From a virus: 20,216 bases of DNA. This document shows positions 1,457 through 20,216 of the stretch, piece after piece (position 1 is the stretch's first letter; every line of letters starts with the position of its first letter). The translations under genes were made by a program, and so were the position numbers. The DNA is taken from IMG/VR virus record IMGVR_UViG_3300022200_006318, positions 1 through 20,216 of that record; one strand, 5' to 3'. A model generated the notes under the pieces. It saw nothing but the letters and a program-made list of their open reading frames with translations, had not been told where the DNA came from and did not search any database.

Positions 1457-1464
1457 TATTTATG
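1457..1464 (-). promoter_or_regulatory. T4-type late promoter octamer CATAAATA
   Basis: Read on the minus strand, the octamer is CATAAATA, 7 of 8 bases of the T4 late consensus TATAAATA. In T4 this octamer occupies -13 to -6. By that geometry +1 falls on base 1451, the G of the GTG start of the minus-strand gene. It is almost back to back with the plus-strand octamer at 1490-1497. Confidence 0.55.
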
Positions 1465-1489: not shown

Positions 1490-1497
1490 TATAAATA
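1490..1497 (+). promoter_or_regulatory. T4-type late promoter octamer TATAAATA (perfect)
   Basis: This is an exact TATAAATA. It ends 5 nt before the ATG at 1503, so T4 late-promoter geometry (octamer at -13 to -6) puts +1 on the A of that ATG. It heads the baseplate operon. An AAGGTAG stretch lies further upstream (1482-1488), too far to act as a normal ribosome binding site. Confidence 0.7.
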
Positions 1498-6128: not shown

Positions 6129-6136
6129 ATTAAATA
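6129..6136 (+). promoter_or_regulatory. Late-type octamer ATTAAATA
   Basis: ATTAAATA matches 6 of 8 bases of TATAAATA, including the core TAAATA. Its first base lies 14 nt before the ATG at 6143. It fills the only substantial gap (17 bp) among the first four genes of the structural operon. By T4 geometry +1 would fall 1 nt before the ATG. Confidence 0.4.
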
Positions 6137-9100: not shown

Positions 9101-9259
9101 GTAGATAATGAAATATACTTCCAAAATTCTAGAATAAGAAATGAAAATTATTCCAACCCTCTAACAGCTAGTTTTATTGACTATAATTATTTGGACGGCA
9201 CCCAGCAAAGTGTATGGCTTGAAAGTGAAGGTGTTTTGAAATTAGGAGAACAACAGTAA
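6143..9259 (+). CDS. Large baseplate/tail structural protein in gp7 position (1038 residues)
   Basis: Length (1038) and position after gp25 and gp6 resemble T4 gp7 (1032 residues), but I cannot confirm homology by motif. The N-terminal third is helical and charged: FTEQERKFLRSINYND (95-110), then KIKSLTSYYKNFRETVK (124-140), then GITSFLTKLISDLL (154-167). Next comes a segment REKDMGGFYKPSNLGTL (359-375), and then a long Asn/Tyr/Ser-rich beta region to the C-terminus. The build suggests a helical anchor in the wedge followed by an exposed beta-rich arm. The protein has no signal peptide and no membrane segment. Its stop codon TAA at 9257 is also part of the late-type octamer in front of the next gene. 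Confidence 0.78.
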   Translation: MPVNTIDRFSDYKIERSITVLGNLSDAVDYNNPLDFKAWLSYFKNNSVSIETFKNSYQKYLTSWNVVKNTFLINQNNDVKQQYISLVEQISLDVFTEQERKFLRSINYNDSQQLDTIVPLVASKIKSLTSYYKNFRETVKTQPRRNNIFSSNIGITSFLTKLISDLLNYNSDTISLAHRFGANKNFVLSNVNYVIDELYDNYDDYFDLTASVPASGYEYGGKERNDQWNSNTNPWDPDLFINYDNSIVRTLSSYNYILEDFISNLSFPVSLNSTDVDYLKNKDFINQLNDGNTNNLNLQNKKALFEKFIGTDWYYLTAGENTSEALSGKLIEAKNISQNYLNRNNVSTATLPNTAFLVREKDMGGFYKPSNLGTLVYNVFKFNYNINYQALSGNTIYYFPDPTKYIGTYGNSKYTKSTFEIFDVNENAYIVNYDVSNSAAFGYINDNSFYLNFHGYENVEEKNQIYSSGVSRNYDKVDFFKGKGDIWSNNDIYNINNKALYPIDERQSTLLVGNNSLVFNSSDIYGNSIGLLKSSTKSLFNSVSSTYNNITQRCLFLSNGLFYINNEPFNYESAINGDYGEFIYDILPSQSFTSSLCSLGDLEFTTETSSRLYNGSFDMPWCFTSSIFYNRGNIYDGVFYSTFNNVLLPDSPSSDSPSWNQNIQTVYYNKLVDGASDINGNRPNFVRTATFLRSLSSVLDCGRFEYVNQLDPFNISNVELKRFDKIKHYGTILEGLSTQYVNEDATSNKSIYDKKYQLSSYSYFRDLNNNVTPLSASLSAIFVKYSAKPEIYNELNNNIIKLDVVFDVCVIETPNYQVIEKIDYDYSTGKVLAFNSSLNYISRITSGNTHIEKFGNFYYHEKSNTILFHKTSIHSALSATNYKYLYPTIYKMELDSLNLRQIFPKSTNSLIYRELSAYSFRSVNNINSSIVDAADPYYNVYEVDRPVLTYDSETNTYSYVIKSVDLSDSIAFYYQNYKFINGKFENVDNEIYFQNSRIRNENYSNPLTASFIDYNYLDGTQQSVWLESEGVLKLGEQQ

Positions 9260-9262
9260 ATA
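9255..9262 (+). promoter_or_regulatory. Late-type octamer AGTAAATA overlapping the upstream stop codon
   Basis: The core TAAATA is present and its first three bases are the stop codon of the preceding gene. The octamer starts 14 nt before the ATG at 9269, the same spacing as at 6143. This is a weak match to TATAAATA (6 of 8) and is supported mainly by the repeated geometry. Confidence 0.35.
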
Positions 9263-9268
9263 TATATA

Positions 9269-11440
9269 ATGCCTTCAACAATTAACACAGCTAAAGCAAA
9301 TAATATAATCTTAGAAGATGTACTAGATCTTACTAAAGATATTATTATATCTGGTGAGTTTTCTTTCTTTGGTAGTTTAGTCAATGGAGGTGAAGGCTTT
9401 TGTGTTTTTTTATTAGATGCTAATTCATCTGGTAATGTTGGTAGCCCTGGTTCGGGGTTAGGTTTTGCACCTACTGAAGGTTTAATTGAGTATGAAGGTA
9501 ATGATATATTTCTTGGTACTGATCAATCTTTACTTGGTGTAGCTTTTGATCATGTAGGGGATTTTTCTAGACCATTAGGAGGTCAATATACTTCAGGTAC
9601 AGTTGACACAAGACCTAATTCAATTGGATTAAGATATGGTAATAGCGGTAATAAAAACTTTGATTATATTGACACAAGTGTTAATTTGATCAATTTTGGT
9701 TTAAATTTGTATGAAACTATTGGTTACAAATACCCTTCAGTTACCGCAACTAAAACTAAAACCCCTACAATAACACCTACCAAAACTTTTACCAACACGA
9801 TAAATTCAACTTTAACGTCTACACAAACAAATACAGTAACTAGAACTAAAACTCAATCTAGAACCAACACCCAAACAAGAACACCTACCCAAACATTTAC
9901 CCCATCTAATACAAGTCAAGCTTGTTCAGTAGTAACACCTACACCAACAAGAACAATTTCACCTACTTTATCTCAAACTAAAACATCTACCCCAACAAAC
10001 ACCCCTACTAATAATGCAATTAATCCTATACGTAAAGCATTTAAAGTAAGAATTACTAATTACGGTAAAAAGGTTATTGTATATCTAAGAAACGATGCAT
10101 ATTCTAACTTTATAAAAGTATATGAATATGATAATTTAAATTTAGAAATGCCGTTATCAGGTAAAACTAGAGTAGGTTTATCTTACGCTACCGGGGTTGA
10201 TACATCAGCTTTTCACATTTATAATTTTTCAGTTAATGGTATAGGATATGAAAATCCATTTACCCCTACACCTACTGCTACAAGAGGGTTAACACCAACA
10301 ACTACTTTAACTCCTACATTAACTAATACAATTACAGTATCTTTAACTCGTAATCATACATCCACACCTACTCAATCTAGAACGAATACTATAACCAAAA
10401 CAAATACACAAACCTATACTCAATTTGCCACACCTAGTAGGACAAGAACTAATACAGCTACTCAAACTAGAACTAGTACTCAATCTAGAACAGCTACTCA
10501 ATTTGCTACAAGAACACAAACACCAACCCAGACTAGGACATCAACTCAAACTAGATCTAATACACCTACTCAAACACAAACTCCTACCAATACAAGAACC
10601 CCAACTCAAACTCAATCACCAACCAAAGCTGTATCATCTCCTTTTGTTACTGAAGCAAATGCTACTTACAAATTTGTATTTGAATCAAATTGGGTTCAAG
10701 CTGATAGTGCAGCTGCTGCAGTAAATGTATTAATTAATAATGCTAGATTTGGATTTAATAAAAATAATTCTACAAGTAATCTTCTTAATTTAAGATCTAC
10801 TTCTAATCCAGGAGGTGTTATAAATGATTTTGCTAATACTTACTTTAGAGCATTTTTCTTTAACAGTGATGCTAACACAGGTCAAACTCAAGGTGAATCA
10901 GCTCCTGATGGACAATCAAGTTGGTTAGGTATACCTTTTGTAGAAAATAAACAGCTATCTAGTAACCCTAACACAGATTATAGAAACGGTATATCTTCTA
11001 ATATATATCAAGCATTACAACTTTTAGTTACTACTGGTTCAACATTAAGTGCTACATTGTTAGATATTGATAAGGAAGATAATTCTTTAGACTCTGCTGG
11101 TACTAATTACAATATTTGGGGTATAGACGGTTTATCGTCTGACTATAAAACACCCACGTTTGATTTAAATTCAAGTGATTTGTATGTACCTAATTTTAAC
11201 AATACAGGTAATATTTTATATAATACAGATTATATTGAAGGTACAATTACTAAAGATAACTTTTTATTGACACCTGACAATTACAGATTAATACCTAATG
11301 TTAGGTATATAATTGTTAATAATAATGAGATAGGTATAACATTTAGTTATTGTTCAGAATTAATTTTCTACTCAGATACAGCTAACCAATCTTCTTATTG
11401 GGGAGCAAGATTAACTTTATTTACTAATGCCAGACAATAA
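9269..11440 (+). CDS. Adhesin-like tail protein: L-type-lectin-like domain interrupted by a Thr-rich tract, second Thr-rich tract, C-terminal domain
   Basis: This is a 723-residue protein. Residues 12-152 read like the first half of an L-type (concanavalin-like) lectin sandwich: GEGFCVFLLD (41-50), GSGLGFAP (61-68), LLGVAFDHVGDFS (88-100) and PNSIGLRYG (116-124). Residues 157-250 are a low-complexity T-x-T-x tract. Residues 253-327 resemble the closing half of the same fold: FKVRITNYGKKVIVYLRN, then RVGLSYATG and FHIYNFSVNG. A second tract fills 330-455, and an unrecognised domain of about 265 residues ends the protein. Probable role: receptor or glycan binding at the tail, with flexible or decorated linkers. 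The lectin assignment is by pattern only. The stop overlaps the next ATG by one base (TAATG), indicating coupled translation. Confidence 0.82.
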   Translation: MPSTINTAKANNIILEDVLDLTKDIIISGEFSFFGSLVNGGEGFCVFLLDANSSGNVGSPGSGLGFAPTEGLIEYEGNDIFLGTDQSLLGVAFDHVGDFSRPLGGQYTSGTVDTRPNSIGLRYGNSGNKNFDYIDTSVNLINFGLNLYETIGYKYPSVTATKTKTPTITPTKTFTNTINSTLTSTQTNTVTRTKTQSRTNTQTRTPTQTFTPSNTSQACSVVTPTPTRTISPTLSQTKTSTPTNTPTNNAINPIRKAFKVRITNYGKKVIVYLRNDAYSNFIKVYEYDNLNLEMPLSGKTRVGLSYATGVDTSAFHIYNFSVNGIGYENPFTPTPTATRGLTPTTTLTPTLTNTITVSLTRNHTSTPTQSRTNTITKTNTQTYTQFATPSRTRTNTATQTRTSTQSRTATQFATRTQTPTQTRTSTQTRSNTPTQTQTPTNTRTPTQTQSPTKAVSSPFVTEANATYKFVFESNWVQADSAAAAVNVLINNARFGFNKNNSTSNLLNLRSTSNPGGVINDFANTYFRAFFFNSDANTGQTQGESAPDGQSSWLGIPFVENKQLSSNPNTDYRNGISSNIYQALQLLVTTGSTLSATLLDIDKEDNSLDSAGTNYNIWGIDGLSSDYKTPTFDLNSSDLYVPNFNNTGNILYNTDYIEGTITKDNFLLTPDNYRLIPNVRYIIVNNNEIGITFSYCSELIFYSDTANQSSYWGARLTLFTNARQ
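9737..10018 (+). repeat. Thr-rich T-x-T-x coding repeat, tract 1 (inside the lectin-like domain)
   Basis: About 94 codons in which Thr occupies nearly every second position, alternating with Lys, Arg, Gln, Asn, Pro and Ser. The coding strand is A/C-rich and poor in G. The tract lies between the two halves of the lectin-like fold. Confidence 0.9.
10256..10633 (+). repeat. Thr-rich T-x-T-x coding repeat, tract 2
   Basis: About 126 codons with the same alternation, here dominated by Gln-Thr and Arg-Thr. Nucleotide units of the type ACTCAAACTAGAAC recur imperfectly, so the tract could expand or shrink by slippage. It separates the lectin-like domain from the C-terminal domain. The apparent open frame at 10425-10724 is a shadow of this repeat. 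Confidence 0.9.
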
Positions 11441-13506
11441 TGGAAACGTCAATCTATATAACAAACTCAACAGATTATTCAGTACTTAGTGCTGCTGTAG
11501 CATCTGGCTACTATTTTAAAAACCCTGTAGATTCAAGCAGTGACTATTACACTAACACAGCAGAAAGTGTTACGTTTACTTCTGATACATTTGCTCAATC
11601 ATTTTCAGGTTACGAGTTTAATAGTAATGAATTAGTTTACAAAAGAACAACAACTGTTAATTTGAGCAGTGTCAAATATAGTGAGTATAATACAATTGTA
11701 TATAATTTATCAGGTATCAATGATAGTAATAATACAATTGTAAAAATTGTATTTGAACCATTATCCGGAATATATCAGACTGTAACTTATAATGGTGAGA
11801 GTTTAGAATTTGATAAAGGGTTGCCTTACAAATTTGCTATTGGAGGAAATACTAATAACAACCCTAAAAATATTCTTTACCCGTATGATTATTATCTTAA
11901 AGATGAAGATGGTGAAGAGAAAACATTTACATCTAGATTCTCTGCATATAGGCAAGATGGTTTAGTTGATGAGTATGTAATTGATATTTTAATCGCAAGG
12001 GATAGTGTTTATAATATATCAGATAAAATGAATCTTTTAGATTCACAAACGTTACCTTTATCATCTAAAGACCCTGTTGTAAAGATTGAATTAGAGAATC
12101 CTAATTATGTTAACAATTTTGTTTTAAGAAGATTTGTAACACCAACTCAAACTAGAACCATTACACCATCACAAACTCCAGATGCTACACCTACAAGAAC
12201 ACTTACACCAACATTTACCAGAACAAGATCTCAAACTCCTACAGCAACTAGAACTAGAACTCAAACTAGAACAAGATCACAATCTCCAACCCAAACAAGA
12301 ACAAAAAGTAGAACTTCTACCCCTGGAGCAACACCAACCAGAACAGTTTCTCCTTCCGAATCTAGAGCACCTAGAGTAGCGGTACCTCCTACCCCTCCTC
12401 CATCTAGTCCACCAAAATGTAATAGTAAAGAGGTTTGGATTTTTTATAAAGGTCTTAACAGCAGTATTGACCCAACTACAGTTACCTTGGGTTTAAGATA
12501 TAAAGCTAACAATGTTATTAGTAGCTTTGGTGTACCTTTAGAAAAAGTAACAGGTGAAAATATTGCTAAAGTTAAAATACCTGTAGATTATTCTTTATAT
12601 AACTTACAACCCTTTGTTAACTTTACTAGTGATGACCCTATTATTACAGTTACTAATTGGGTTACATCAGTTGAATGCTCTTCATCACCTGTAGACACTT
12701 TTAATCCACCTGTTATTGAAACCCCTCCACCAGTTGAACCACCCCCGGTATCTAACGTACCTCCTGTTATACCCCCTGTTATACCACCACCTGAACAACC
12801 ACCTATAATTGTACCGCCTGTCGATCCTGTAGTACCAGACGAACCTTTACGAAGTGTTTTCTCGTTTGGTTTCGGTAACGTTGTTGAACCACCTATTGCT
12901 TGTAATATTGCTTTACCTGGGGAAGCTGATCAAATAATTACCGGCGGGGTATGGAATGTAAATATAGATGTTAACTACATTGTATTTGTTTCTTCTTTAG
13001 ATATTACACAACTTAGAAGAAACATTATAAGCCCTGAAGATCACAAAGCTAAATTTATTCTACCCGATGGTGGTACTCATCTTCAAGCAGGCACATTTAG
13101 CCAGAGAGTAAATTATACTACAATTCCTACAGGTACCGTAGCTTTATCTATGGGACCTCCTATACAATTAACAACTCCATCTGTTAGAGATTTATCACCG
13201 TTGATTACTCAGGCTACTTATATAATCTATAAAGTAGACGTTAAAAATGAAATTGATGATTTTGATGATTATTATAGGCCATGGAATGAAGACTTTAATA
13301 ACCCCTGCGAAATTCATAGAGATTGGGATTTAGACATAACAAAAAGAGATTATCCAGACTTTGCAAAATTTGTAACAGAAGAAAATGGGAGATATCCAAT
13401 TGCAAAAGCTCCAAATCATTCTTATATTCAAATACAACCTCTTGTAAGTTATCAACAATGGGAAAAAGATAACTATCCATTCACACATATAGTAACTAGA
13501 AGTTAA
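11440..13506 (+). CDS. Adhesin-like tail protein with Thr-rich tract and two Pro-rich linkers
   Basis: This is a 688-residue protein built as beads on a string. An N-terminal beta-rich region (1-230) is followed by a Thr-rich tract (233-306) of the same type as in the preceding gene. Then come a short Pro-rich linker (311-325), a small domain (about 328-412, starting at CNSKEVWIFYKG), a long Pro-rich linker (422-468, PPV/PPP repeats) and a C-terminal domain (470-688). I recognise no catalytic motif or named fold. The N-terminal region may attach to the tail and the C-terminal domains may be exposed, but that orientation is a guess. Its ATG overlaps the previous stop by one base. The shared tract suggests that the two genes exchange sequence or arose from a common adhesin module. 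Confidence 0.82.
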   Translation: METSIYITNSTDYSVLSAAVASGYYFKNPVDSSSDYYTNTAESVTFTSDTFAQSFSGYEFNSNELVYKRTTTVNLSSVKYSEYNTIVYNLSGINDSNNTIVKIVFEPLSGIYQTVTYNGESLEFDKGLPYKFAIGGNTNNNPKNILYPYDYYLKDEDGEEKTFTSRFSAYRQDGLVDEYVIDILIARDSVYNISDKMNLLDSQTLPLSSKDPVVKIELENPNYVNNFVLRRFVTPTQTRTITPSQTPDATPTRTLTPTFTRTRSQTPTATRTRTQTRTRSQSPTQTRTKSRTSTPGATPTRTVSPSESRAPRVAVPPTPPPSSPPKCNSKEVWIFYKGLNSSIDPTTVTLGLRYKANNVISSFGVPLEKVTGENIAKVKIPVDYSLYNLQPFVNFTSDDPIITVTNWVTSVECSSSPVDTFNPPVIETPPPVEPPPVSNVPPVIPPVIPPPEQPPIIVPPVDPVVPDEPLRSVFSFGFGNVVEPPIACNIALPGEADQIITGGVWNVNIDVNYIVFVSSLDITQLRRNIISPEDHKAKFILPDGGTHLQAGTFSQRVNYTTIPTGTVALSMGPPIQLTTPSVRDLSPLITQATYIIYKVDVKNEIDDFDDYYRPWNEDFNNPCEIHRDWDLDITKRDYPDFAKFVTEENGRYPIAKAPNHSYIQIQPLVSYQQWEKDNYPFTHIVTRS
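12136..12357 (+). repeat. Thr-rich T-x-T-x coding repeat, tract 3
   Basis: About 74 codons of alternating Thr with Arg, Gln, Pro and Ser, Arg being more frequent than in the other tracts. Short nucleotide strings such as ACTCAAACTAGAAC are shared with tract 2, about 1.6 kb upstream, so recombination between the tracts is possible. Confidence 0.88.
12703..12843 (+). repeat. Pro-rich coding repeat (PPV/PPP)
   Basis: About 47 codons of Pro-Val-Ile-Glu repeats form a likely stiff linker between the small middle domain and the C-terminal domain of the second adhesin-like protein. Confidence 0.75.
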
Positions 13507-17618: not shown

Positions 17619-17862
17619 ATCATTCAAAAAGTTTTATAAAGATGAAGATGAAACTGTCTTCTCTGGCCCCGGTGAAGAGGAAGCTCGTATCAAAGGGGAG
17701 ATAATGCGTAAAAATATAAAACAACAACCCAGTGCTGATAAAGCCCCAGATATAAGAAACCAACCTGGCCCTAATTATACCAATCAGCCATCCTTACCAA
17801 AGATATCCTACAAAAGAAAATCTAAAGTATTACAGCCGGGAATTCGCAAGACTGATGTGTAA
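17602..17862 (+). CDS. Hypothetical basic, low-complexity protein, 86 residues
   Basis: The ATG lies inside the end of the membrane-protein gene and the stop is 2 nt before the nuclease gene. The N-terminus is strongly basic (MKRKIKSFKKFYK). An acidic patch (DEDE) and a Pro/Asn/Gln-rich stretch follow, then another basic C-terminus (SYKRKSKVLQPGIRK). It is probably disordered, and nucleic-acid binding is possible from charge alone. No family recognised. Confidence 0.6.
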   Translation: MKRKIKSFKKFYKDEDETVFSGPGEEEARIKGEIMRKNIKQQPSADKAPDIRNQPGPNYTNQPSLPKISYKRKSKVLQPGIRKTDV

Positions 17863-17864
17863 AT

Positions 17865-18233
17865 ATGCGTATGTACGAATACAGAGCGAAGATCACGAGA
17901 GTGGTTGACGGCGATACTCTCAAGGCTTTAGTCGATGTAGGGTTTAATATGCATCATGATGTTACCTTAAGATTATATGGCATTGATTGTCCTGAAACAA
18001 AAACCAAAAATCTGAAGGAGAAGGAAAAAGGATTCGAAGCTAAAGCTAGAATGATACAATTACTTGAAGCTTGTGATTATGTTGTTAATATCAAATCACA
18101 TGGTGTTGACAAATATGGAAGATGTCTTGCTGAAATAGTATCTGTTACCCCTCATGGAGAAAGAAAAAATATTAATCGTGTTCTTCTAGACGAAGGTCTT
18201 GCTGTCGATTATCATGGTGGTAAAAAAAGTTGA
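17865..18233 (+). CDS. Staphylococcal-nuclease-like (SNase) endonuclease
   Basis: The 122-residue protein is an OB-fold SNase domain without a signal peptide. It keeps the catalytic set: VVDGDT (13-18; Asp17 matches SNase Asp21), RLYGIDCPE (36-44; Arg36, Asp41 and Glu44 match Arg35, Asp40 and Glu43) and DKYGR (82-86; Arg86 matches Arg87). SNase Thr41 is replaced by Cys, which is common in bacterial members. The family hydrolyses DNA or RNA in a Ca2+-dependent way. A cytoplasmic phage version could degrade host nucleic acid, but the substrate is unknown. A second in-frame ATG lies at 17871. Its stop codon overlaps the -35 box of the next gene. Confidence 0.88.
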   Translation: MRMYEYRAKITRVVDGDTLKALVDVGFNMHHDVTLRLYGIDCPETKTKNLKEKEKGFEAKARMIQLLEACDYVVNIKSHGVDKYGRCLAEIVSVTPHGERKNINRVLLDEGLAVDYHGGKKS

Positions 18234-18256
18234 CGTTATTAGTTTGTCATTATAAT
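18230..18256 (+). promoter_or_regulatory. Sigma70-like promoter TTGACG-N15-TATAAT
   Basis: The -35 TTGACG is at 18230-18235 and the perfect -10 TATAAT at 18251-18256. The -35 box starts 34 nt before the ATG at 18264 and the -10 box 13 nt before it, so +1 is predicted at the start codon. The -35 box covers the SNase stop codon. Confidence 0.65.
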
Positions 18257-18261
18257 AACGT
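18233..18261 (+). promoter_or_regulatory. Inverted repeat ACGTTATT-N13-AATAACGT within the promoter
   Basis: Perfect 8-bp arms at 18233-18240 and 18254-18261 flank the spacer and overlap both hexamers of the promoter. A second dyad pairs TTGTCAT (18244-18250) with ATGACAA at the start codon (18264-18270). GTTTGTCAT (18242-18250) also pairs with ATGACAAAC (18273-18281). Operator function is inferred. Confidence 0.5.
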
Positions 18262-18263
18262 AT

Positions 18264-18533
18264 ATGACAACAATGACAAACACAAACTACGATGGAACCA
18301 CTACAACCTATATGACCGGACGTCCTATTGACTACAACAAGCGAGTCGAAGGCAATCCTCAGCGTATCTTTGCTGAGTTTGAAGTCGGTGCTGATGGATC
18401 ATTGCATGTTGTAGAGGCTCACGGAGAGGTGAAAGTTAATCAATTCGCTTCTCGTATTAAGAAGCTTCGTGCACGAAGCGTTCATCGCGTTCTGCGTAAT
18501 GCAGGTATCAAGCGCACGTTGACTGTCAATTGA
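18264..18533 (+). CDS. Hypothetical protein, 89 residues, G+C-richer
   Basis: The N-terminus is Thr/Asn-rich (MTTMTNTNYDGTTTTYMTGRP). A predicted beta part (RIFAEFEVGADGSLHVVEAHGEVKV) and a basic C-terminal helix (ASRIKKLRARSVHRVLRNAG) follow. The basic helix could bind nucleic acid; no family is recognised. Codons use more C and G than those of neighbouring genes, as expected for a strongly expressed early gene or for one acquired from elsewhere. The start is fixed by the promoter at 18230-18256; a second in-frame ATG is at 18273. No Shine-Dalgarno sequence. Confidence 0.72.
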   Translation: MTTMTNTNYDGTTTTYMTGRPIDYNKRVEGNPQRIFAEFEVGADGSLHVVEAHGEVKVNQFASRIKKLRARSVHRVLRNAGIKRTLTVN

Positions 18534-18536
18534 TAG

Positions 18537-18564
18537 TTGACTAATTAGAGAGCGTCCCTATCTT
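18537..18564 (+). promoter_or_regulatory. Sigma70-like promoter TTGACT-N16-TATCTT
   Basis: The -35 box is at 18537-18542 and the -10 box at 18559-18564. They start 34 and 12 nt before the ATG at 18571. The 40 nt ending with this start codon match the 40 nt ending with the DUF932 start codon at 30 positions without gaps. Confidence 0.65.
18546..18560 (+). promoter_or_regulatory. Operator-like dyad TAGAGA-N3-TCCCTA
   Basis: The dyad is in the promoter spacer, with its right arm running into the -10 box. The same dyad, TAGGGA-N3-TCCCTA, occupies the same position in the promoter of the DUF932 gene. It is the best-conserved part of the shared 40-nt segment and may bind a common regulator. Confidence 0.5.
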
Positions 18565-18570
18565 AAACGT

Positions 18571-18819
18571 ATGAAATGCATTACTTGTTCTAACGATATT
18601 GAGCAACCTAGAGTTGAGTTCGGAATGAAAACTTGCAAAGCTTGTGCGTTTAGAGGTAGGGACGTAGCTCGTTATAAAGGTAACATGGTATATGATCACA
18701 AAACGAGTCCTAGTATTCAGATTATGTCGTCTGAATGCTGGAATGAGCAGAAGAAATATTATAAGCCTCAAGGTGCTAGATCAGCTGTAAAAAACTTTTC
18801 TAAGCATCTGTGCGCTTAA
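18571..18819 (+). CDS. DksA/TraR-like C4 zinc-finger protein, 82 residues
   Basis: Cys3-x2-Cys6, 15 residues, then Cys22-x2-Cys25 (MKCITCSNDIEQPRVEFGMKTCKACA) fit a four-cysteine zinc finger. Its surrounding pattern (CxxC, then I..xR, then CxxC) resembles the DksA/TraR finger, with a slightly shorter interval than in DksA (17). The long N-terminal coiled coil of DksA is absent, so it cannot act on RNA polymerase exactly as DksA does. It may bind nucleic acid or RNA polymerase. A basic C-terminal stretch follows. The start is fixed by the adjacent promoter. Confidence 0.7.
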   Translation: MKCITCSNDIEQPRVEFGMKTCKACAFRGRDVARYKGNMVYDHKTSPSIQIMSSECWNEQKKYYKPQGARSAVKNFSKHLCA

Positions 18820-18822
18820 ATA
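18815..18822 (+). promoter_or_regulatory. Late-type octamer CTTAAATA
   Basis: It matches 6 of 8 bases of TATAAATA, including TAAATA. It starts 13 nt before the ATG at 18828 and overlaps the stop codon of the zinc-finger gene. Confidence 0.4.
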
Positions 18823-18827
18823 ATTAT

Positions 18828-19136
18828 ATGGCGAAAATAAGCTTTTTTACAGTAGATAGATCTATAACTGTAAATCATCTTAATGGGGGATTTCTTAGCT
18901 ACTTTCCAGATTTCATTGCTTTTTCTATAAATCATGAACATTTAAATCATGATCTTTACTATCTATCTTCTAATATACTTCACCATAAAAAAGAAGAAGT
19001 ACCTTTTACTGGAACTTTTACCGGAACTTATCAAGGATCTTACAATCATGGTCCGTATATAAAACTAAAAATGAGTTTTAAATTTGAAGATGGATTGTTA
19101 AGGGATAGAGATCTTATCAGTTTTGATATGTCTTAA
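18828..19136 (+). CDS. Hypothetical protein, 102 residues
   Basis: The ATG at 18828 (MAKISFFTVDRSITVNHLNGG...) is chosen over a GTG at 18810. It avoids overlap with the preceding gene and sits at the usual distance from the octamer. The sequence is aromatic and beta-prone, with His-rich parts (INHEHLNHDLYYLSSNILHHKK) and a Gly/Thr/Tyr segment (FTGTFTGTYQGSYNHG). There is no signal peptide or membrane segment. It is low in G+C like the structural genes, unlike its two G+C-richer flanking early genes. No family recognised. Confidence 0.68.
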   Translation: MAKISFFTVDRSITVNHLNGGFLSYFPDFIAFSINHEHLNHDLYYLSSNILHHKKEEVPFTGTFTGTYQGSYNHGPYIKLKMSFKFEDGLLRDRDLISFDMS

Positions 19137-19146
19137 TTTTTTTTAG

Positions 19147-19174
19147 TTGAAAAAGTAGGGAGAGTCCCTACTAT
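19147..19174 (+). promoter_or_regulatory. Sigma70-like promoter TTGAAA-N16-TACTAT
   Basis: The -35 box is at 19147-19152 and the -10 box at 19169-19174, starting 34 and 12 nt before the ATG at 19181. Predicted +1 is the A of the ATG. Confidence 0.65.
19154..19172 (+). promoter_or_regulatory. Perfect dyad AGTAGGGA-GAG-TCCCTACT in the promoter spacer
   Basis: Two 8-bp arms with a 3-nt centre lie between the -35 and -10 boxes and run into the -10 box. No T-run follows and it is upstream of the predicted transcription start, so an operator is more likely than a terminator. It is a stronger version of the dyad at 18546-18560. Confidence 0.55.
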
Positions 19175-19180
19175 ATATGT

Positions 19181-20164
19181 ATGTTAATTGATAATAGCTT
19201 AGTCAGCCTAGACAAATTGGTCGGAAATAAAATCGAAGGTTCTTCTATCAATGATGTAATGGATGCTGGAGGTTTTAATTTTGAAGTAGTAGAAGAAAAT
19301 CTTGGAAATGATGTTCAAGGAGCAGATAATTGGAAGGTGCTCCGAAGAGGCGAAGGAGGAGATGTAATCAATGTTGTTCGTGATACATACCAGGTCATTC
19401 AGAATAGAGAGATTCTAGAGCCATTTGATGAAGTTCGTCGTCAGTTCAAAGCAGAATGGTCTCAGTGCGGTGTTATTGGCAAAGGTAATAACATTTGGGT
19501 TAGTGCAAAGCTTCCTGAAGAGCTGCAGCTTAAGAGCAATAGCCAAGATAAACTTTGCGGTTATATCATGGCCATTCTTAATCATGATGGTACAAGAGCA
19601 GATGCGGTCTTTCCATATGTTGATAGATTGTTTTGTAACAATCAGTTTAATACAGTAGCTAGATCAGCAAGGGGTATGACTATTATGCACCGTTCTAATT
19701 ATGAGCAACGTATTAATGTATTGATGAATAGTTTTAAGAAAGGTATCGAAAAGAATATCGAATTTGTCAAGACTGCAGATGATCTAGACTCTCAGAAGAT
19801 CTCTAGAGAAGAGCTAGAAAAGGTAGTCAGTCGATTGTTTCCAGATAAGAAGGTTCGTAACAAAGGAGAAGAAGTACTCCTATCAGGAGAGACGTCTAGG
19901 AATAGAGTTATGGAGTTGTTCTCTAACGGCGCTGGAAACAAAGGAGAAACTCGTTGGGATGCTTTCAATGCTGTTACTGAGTATATTGATCATCATCAGG
20001 GAGCAAAGCGGATAAACAATGCAATCCTACGGGAAGGTCAGAGCGTGCTAGCATCAGATAGAATGCGCAGAGGATTTGAGCGACGATTTATGAACAATAT
20101 GGTTGGCGGTCAAAGCAACAATCTGAAACATTCAGCCTTGAAACTACTTAGCGGTAAGCTATAA
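19181..20164 (+). CDS. DUF932 (phage/plasmid-type) protein
   Basis: This is a 327-residue protein of the DUF932 family found in phages and plasmids, often near replication genes. Supporting patterns are the YQVIQNREILEPFDEV segment (about 70-85), the middle CNNQFNTVARSARG (about 151-164) and the C-terminal TRWDAFNAVTEYIDHHQGAKR (from about 257). The biochemical role of the family is unknown. G+C is about as high as in the clamp-loader gene and higher than in the structural genes. The start is fixed by a promoter whose predicted +1 is the ATG. The promoter of the following gene lies inside its last codons. Confidence 0.88.
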   Translation: MLIDNSLVSLDKLVGNKIEGSSINDVMDAGGFNFEVVEENLGNDVQGADNWKVLRRGEGGDVINVVRDTYQVIQNREILEPFDEVRRQFKAEWSQCGVIGKGNNIWVSAKLPEELQLKSNSQDKLCGYIMAILNHDGTRADAVFPYVDRLFCNNQFNTVARSARGMTIMHRSNYEQRINVLMNSFKKGIEKNIEFVKTADDLDSQKISREELEKVVSRLFPDKKVRNKGEEVLLSGETSRNRVMELFSNGAGNKGETRWDAFNAVTEYIDHHQGAKRINNAILREGQSVLASDRMRRGFERRFMNNMVGGQSNNLKHSALKLLSGKL

Positions 20165-20165
20165 T
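20138..20165 (+). promoter_or_regulatory. Sigma70-like promoter TTGAAA-N16-TATAAT
   Basis: The -35 box is at 20138-20143, inside the DUF932 coding sequence. The perfect -10 box is at 20160-20165. They start 34 and 12 nt before the ATG at 20172. A short dyad TAGC-N5-GCTA (20149-20161) lies in the spacer. Confidence 0.65.
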
Positions 20166-20171
20166 AGTTAC

Positions 20172-20216
20172 ATGATCGAACAACGATATATAAGCGGGCT
20201 GCTCTTTGAGAGAGCA
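20172..20216 (+). CDS. Start of a gene cut by the window edge (15 codons)
   Basis: The open frame reads MIEQRYISGLLFERA and runs off the window. The start is supported by the TTGAAA-N16-TATAAT promoter at the standard distance. The first residues vaguely resemble the N-terminus of T4-like primases (gp61 type), which would suit the replication context, but 15 residues are too few for a call. Confidence 0.55.
   Translation, partial: MIEQRYISGLLFERA

Follow-up and report, generated by a model that had tools for sequence, protein, structure and literature searches.

Where do the messages of a phage begin when its promoters stand a dozen bases before its start codons? The window analysed here is an entire virus record of 20,216 bases, a fragment of a phage genome, in which four sigma70-type promoters each run straight into an ATG (Table 1). 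The preliminary description placed TTGA 34 nt before all four ATGs and the -10 hexamers 13, 12, 12 and 12 nt before them, and read the mRNAs as leaderless; re-read on the sequence, all of these positions are right. The spacers between the two elements (starts 18264, 18571, 19181 and 20172) measure 15, 16, 16 and 16 nt, a little under the sigma70 reference of 17 nt, and TATCTT (18571) and TACTAT (19181) are weak -10 boxes with 4/6 matches each. A GGA-nnn-TCC dyad, which may have a regulatory role, is present in two spacers. Judging from promoter type, the four genes would belong to the early class; the products of those at 18264 and 18571 have no Pfam or PHROG match. Our reading, held at a probability of roughly 0.84, is that a T4-superfamily clade sets promoters directly against start codons and makes leaderless mRNAs (leaders of 0-3 nt) from early and late promoters alike.

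Table 1. Promoters and genes of the window discussed in the text
Feature	Position	Strand	Remarks
sigma70-type promoter TTGACG/TATAAT	18230-18235 / 18251-18256	+	ATG 18264
sigma70-type promoter TTGACT/TATCTT	18537-18542 / 18559-18564	+	ATG 18571
sigma70-type promoter TTGAAA/TACTAT	19147-19152 / 19169-19174	+	ATG 19181
sigma70-type promoter TTGAAA/TATAAT	20138-20143 / 20160-20165	+	ATG 20172; overlaps DUF932 gene stop codon
Small protein gene, 89 aa, no family	18264..18533	+	Predicted leaderless or 1-2 nt leader
Small Cys-containing protein gene, 82 aa	18571..18819	+	Predicted leaderless
DUF932 protein gene, 327 aa	19181..20164	+	PF06067, E 4.5e-34; predicted leaderless
5′ part of gene truncated by contig end	20172..20216	+	Predicted leaderless
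Late promoter TATAAATA	1490..1497	+	TAAATA 11 nt before ATG 1503, gp25-like baseplate wedge (PHROG 261)
Late core TAAATA	1457..1462	-	11 nt before GTG 1451; divergent from 1503
Late core TAAATA	6131..6136	+	12 nt before ATG 6143
Late core TAAATA	9257..9262	+	12 nt before ATG 9269
Late core TAAATA	17860..17865	+	11 nt before ATG 17871, SNase-like nuclease (PF00565)
Late core TAAATA	18817..18822	+	11 nt before ATG 18828

Relatives were collected in two steps. The DUF932 protein, used as a query, gave four close loci (L001-L004, 81-99% identity) on contigs G001-G004 (23-69 kb; G004, 69 kb). Searches with the portal and the clamp loader then found 68 loci, including a few on contigs already collected, and six additional contigs of 42-209 kb, including G005 (209 kb) and the distant relative G008 (117 kb), were analysed at full length. 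G000-G004 share gene content and so are not fully independent, while G005-G008 are much more divergent; G008 is linked by its clamp loader (39% identity) and has no portal match. Gene starts came from a simple codon-statistics gene finder that is blind to upstream sequence. Among phage records, a nucleotide search turned up no relative, and the close relatives carry no tRNAs.

Membership in the T4 superfamily follows from core genes and from the transcription apparatus. The window encodes the clamp loader gp44 (PHROG 168, E 8e-68) and the baseplate wedge gp25 (PHROG 261, E 1e-18); the baseplate wedge gp6 gave tblastn matches, and G004 adds the portal gp20 (PHROG 213, E 2e-104). The sliding clamp gp45 profile gave only a single weak match. 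With these go a gp55-like sigma in relatives and TATAAATA-type late promoters in the window and the clade. A search of 84,980 species genomes with the portal protein and the portal profile found only one relative, at 39% in a goat-colon Lachnospiraceae MAG, and this single match is not usable for a host call.

Could the four promoters be accidents of composition? The genome has a G+C content of 31%, and hexamers resembling a -10 box abound in it. Yet TTGA at -34 with TAnnnT at -12 or -13 occurs at 4 of 21 window gene starts, against a shuffled mean of 0.01 (maximum 1 in 5,000 shuffles), and at 33 other offsets the same pair occurs once altogether. Scanned on both strands, the window holds 24 such pairs, four of which have an ATG at +34. 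Together with the conservation described below, these controls refute chance, whose probability we put at next to nil, and they bear out the earlier judgement that it could hardly produce the shared spacing.

Conservation in related contigs is often of better -10 boxes (TATAAT) than those of the window. Orthologues of the 19181 gene are preceded by TTGATA-16-TATAAT-6-ATG in G001 and G003 and by TTGATT-16-TATAAT-6-ATG in G004; those of the 18571 gene have TATCAT or TATTAT at 12-13 nt; and those of the 20172 gene (G001, G003, G004) have TTGAAA-16-TATAAT at 12-13 nt, a stretch partly under coding constraint. Variable sites in codons 1-25 fall on codon positions 1, 2 and 3 in counts of 7/1/11 (19181), 4/2/9 (18571) and 3/2/12 (20172), and because they follow codon positions these 5′ stretches are coding. 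For the 18264 gene the first ATG is the start, since the second is absent in L004. Misassigned start codons were rejected on these two grounds, the substitution bias running from the ATG and the missing second ATG.

The preliminary description had made its reading depend on the motif pair recurring at this distance elsewhere, and the check, run on the relatives, found it enriched: each contig of G001-G010 has 4-11 genes preceded by a TTGA..-10 pair with the box at 12-14 nt, where shuffling gives 0.01-0.4. In this strict promoter scan the window itself scores 0, owing to the weakness of two of its -10 boxes and to the small number of genes listed for it. The two elements also go together, which is independent support for their being promoters. 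Of genes picked solely by a -10 box at 12-14 nt, 33/64 in G005-G007 and 9/14 in G004 have TTGA at -37 to -31. The corresponding figures are 13/95 and 4/22 for late-box genes, and 46/385 and 4/43 for genes lacking both boxes.

The arrangement extends beyond genes of early type. The T4 late promoter TATAAATA has the core TAAATA, and this hexamer precedes structural genes by 11-12 nt. The T4 late box has 8 bp and begins at -13 (PMC2988020); it thus ends at -6, and a TAAATA starting at -11 would put +1 on the start codon. Position histograms have one sharp peak and are nearly empty outside it; in G004, TAAATA stands at 11-12 nt in 22 genes, against 0.05 per position at 41-80. At 11-13 nt it precedes 22/81 genes in G004 (shuffled 0.5), 57/309 in G005 (2.3), 27/206 in G008 (1.3), 13/85 in G009, 15/53 in G010, 14/124 in G006 and 24/111 in G007, the shuffled means across these contigs being 0.5-2.3. 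Late-box genes of the close group start with GTG in 12/54 cases, so the host probably accepts leaderless GUG also. The leaderless reading is supported, but its restriction to early genes was too narrow: late promoters carry the same geometry on more genes, as a genome-wide property.

Four relatives, G005, G007, G009 and G011, encode a gp55-like late sigma factor (PHROG 234, E 1e-27 to 4e-29); none turned up in the window, itself a fragment. Upstream of the G005 gene for this factor, TTGAAA..TATAAT stands 12 nt from the ATG, as expected of an early or middle gene; in G009 the box lies at 17 nt, and in G007 no early-type promoter was seen upstream.

How exactly transcription would start on the initiation codon is the next question. 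Box-to-ATG distances vary somewhat: TATAAT lies 13-14 nt from the ATG in orthologues of the 18264 gene (G001-G004), the box lies at 14-19 nt in some orthologues, corresponding to leaders of 2-8 nt, and a few genes in G003, G004 and G009 have it at 17-19 nt. These cases fit a reading in which the promoters are real, leaders are very short (about 2-8 nt) rather than absent, the start is not on the A of the ATG, and initiation is still SD-independent. As a general account we think it unlikely, for the modal distances are 12 nt for TATAAT and 11 nt for TAAATA, from which the usual sigma70 and T4 late rules would place +1 at the start codon. Promoters set against start codons remain the preferred reading, with the refinement that some genes are better described by leaders of 0-3 nt than by a strict zero.

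A third promoter class, a repeated one, appears in G008. Of the 70 copies of TTAAAAACTA in its 117 kb, 51 stand exactly 25 nt upstream of an ORF that begins with ATG, and TATAAT or a near form lies between the element and the ATG.

The preliminary description noted no Shine-Dalgarno (SD) sequence at the four genes, and the lack proves to be general, SD motifs being at or near background across the clade: SD-like motifs occupy the SD region of 0-14% of clade genes, with a background of 3-10%. Among the phages compared the figures are 54% for T4, 54% for Mosig, 53% for Melnitz, 49% for HTVC008M, 41% for Rhizobium phage I1_18, 27% for Syn9, 25% for P-SSM2 and 12% for RM378. The sequence signature of leaderless expression found here is the -10 box some 12 nt upstream of the start codon together with the lack of an SD. 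Gene arrangement in G004 is in keeping with it. Among genes lying 11-40 nt past the previous stop, 16/19 carry an early- or late-type promoter at the start, and of the 38 genes that have no such promoter and no SD, 27 overlap the previous stop or lie directly against it, as expected of coupled re-initiation.

Absence of SD also suits an altogether different explanation, that the A/T-rich motifs are the translation context of an SD-less host (Kozak-like A at -3, -6 and -12/-13, in the style of Bacteroidetes) on mRNAs with ordinary leaders. Adenines at such positions stimulate initiation in Flavobacterium (PMC6847099), and 66% of unpromoted G008 genes have A at -3. We regard this as very unlikely, because it leaves unexplained why TTGA at -34 is coupled to the -10 box, why exact TAAATA and TATAAT hexamers stand at one distance, and why TTAAAAACTA stands at 25 nt; moreover, the Bacteroidetes promoter box TAnnTTTG, tested upstream of genes, was not enriched.

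With promoters set against start codons, expression could proceed as follows. Host sigma70 polymerase would read TTGA-16-TATAAT, probably early, and the gp55-like sigma would presumably serve the T4-type late promoters (TAAATA); in both cases transcription would begin at the first base of the start codon or about 1-3 nt ahead of it. The resulting mRNAs, leaderless and SD-free, would need ribosomes that bind a 5′-terminal AUG and sometimes GUG; most likely these would be 70S particles, as a review of leaderless mRNAs describes (PMC9031893). Downstream genes of operons, most of which overlap or adjoin the preceding stop codon, would probably be reached by coupled re-initiation, and genes can also sit on longer read-through transcripts. 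To a still wider proposal we give even odds: that an entire T4-superfamily branch gave up SD initiation, moved its early, late and, in one relative, third repeated class of promoters to the start codon, and runs its infection programme on leaderless mRNAs. This would imply a preference for 5′-terminal AUG or GUG, either in the host itself or in ribosomes modified by the phage.

The observation is real and larger than first described, since it covers a T4-superfamily clade and several promoter classes; leaderless phage mRNA as such is known, lambda cI being one case. T4 serves as the reference model for how phages express their genes, and the T4 stretch that we examined has, after its late promoters, a leader containing a ribosome site. 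In a large uncultured clade, two or three classes of promoter have apparently been joined to the start codon, which ties the choice of transcription start to that of protein start and provides a clean evolutionary contrast for studying the reasons for leaderless translation. The clade also suggests a host in which ribosomes take leaderless mRNA, GUG starts included, as a bulk mode. Gene callers that rely on SD may place starts wrongly in viral contigs of this kind.

In the open-licence literature we found no report of systematic leaderless use in the T4 superfamily, the reports on point being those of phiYS40 and lambda cI. By its description the Thermus phage phiYS40 is similar, most of its middle and late mRNAs being leaderless, and the phage is associated with a rise of IF2 and a fall of IF3 (PMC3594737); the present clade differs in involving both sigma70-type and T4-type late promoters. 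A paper on phage AR9 notes in passing that transcripts of phages often lack leaders (PMC5312081). In Deinococcus-Thermus, leaderless genes are driven by a -10 motif, TANNNT, that lies a few bases from the ORF (PMC12340547), a likeness to the clade; but those are host genes, whereas the clade consists of phages that often add a -35 element and use a T4-type late core. The clade bears a general resemblance to the Far-T4 phages, uncultured T4-like contigs distant from T4 and cyanophages; the main text of the paper describing them uses neither the word promoter nor the word leaderless (PMC4360716).

T4, Syn9 and P-SSM2 share T4-type core genes and the late core TAAATA with the clade. In T4 and Syn9, however, that core mostly lies about 26-34 nt upstream, with space for a leader, and SD motifs are found, whereas in the clade it lies at 11-13 nt. 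Mosig and Melnitz show almost nothing of the leaderless geometry. For pelagimyophages, late promoters were reported as not predictable by cyanophage methods (PMC7029224). The Pelagibacter phage HTVC008M differs from the clade in its strong SD use and in showing no early leaderless class; its portal is among the nearest cultured relatives (32%) and, like the clade, it has TAAATA exactly 11 nt before the start, in 8/194 genes.

A repeated promoter arrangement was found in the distant 117-kb relative (G008, comprising L116-L121), which was taken as a whole contig. It holds 70 copies of TTAAAAACTA, 51 of which have an ATG-started ORF exactly 25 nt downstream, with a TATAAT-like box lying between TTAAAAACTA and the ATG. 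This is a repeated promoter class, and a phage-specific one, not seen in the contigs other than G008.

The T4-type late core TAAATA also recurs close to start codons. In the cultured Pelagibacter phage HTVC008M (L025-L027) it lies exactly 11 nt upstream of the start in eight genes, although most genes of this phage have a Shine-Dalgarno sequence. A 238-kb contig from a goat-colon Lachnospiraceae MAG (L138), which encodes a relative of the portal protein (39%), has TAAATA 11-13 nt upstream in 5 of 20 genes.

Two promoter spacers of the window and those of their orthologues have a dyad in common, with the forms GGAGTGTCC and GGAACGTCC, which is possibly an operator or the trace of a promoter duplication. 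The inverted repeat of the 20172 gene is conserved in three close-relative contigs (G001, G003 and G004), its copy at L001:5987-6060 giving a fold z of -4.1; it is predicted to form a hairpin ~25-30 nt into the putative leaderless mRNA.

Sequence features of the window
Feature	Position	Remarks
GGA-nnn-TCC-like dyad, promoter spacer of 18571 gene	18549-18558	Common to orthologues
GGA-nnn-TCC-like dyad, promoter spacer of 19181 gene	19157-19168	Common to orthologues
Strong inverted repeat, GCTGCTCT..AGAGCAGC	20195-20216	Within first codons of 20172 gene
Two large structural genes	9269-13506	Long low-complexity repeats, (S/T/N)PTQTRT-type

Whereas no tRNA genes were found in the close relatives, a nearly complete set of 27 was predicted in the 209-kb relative (G005; L097-L098, L105).
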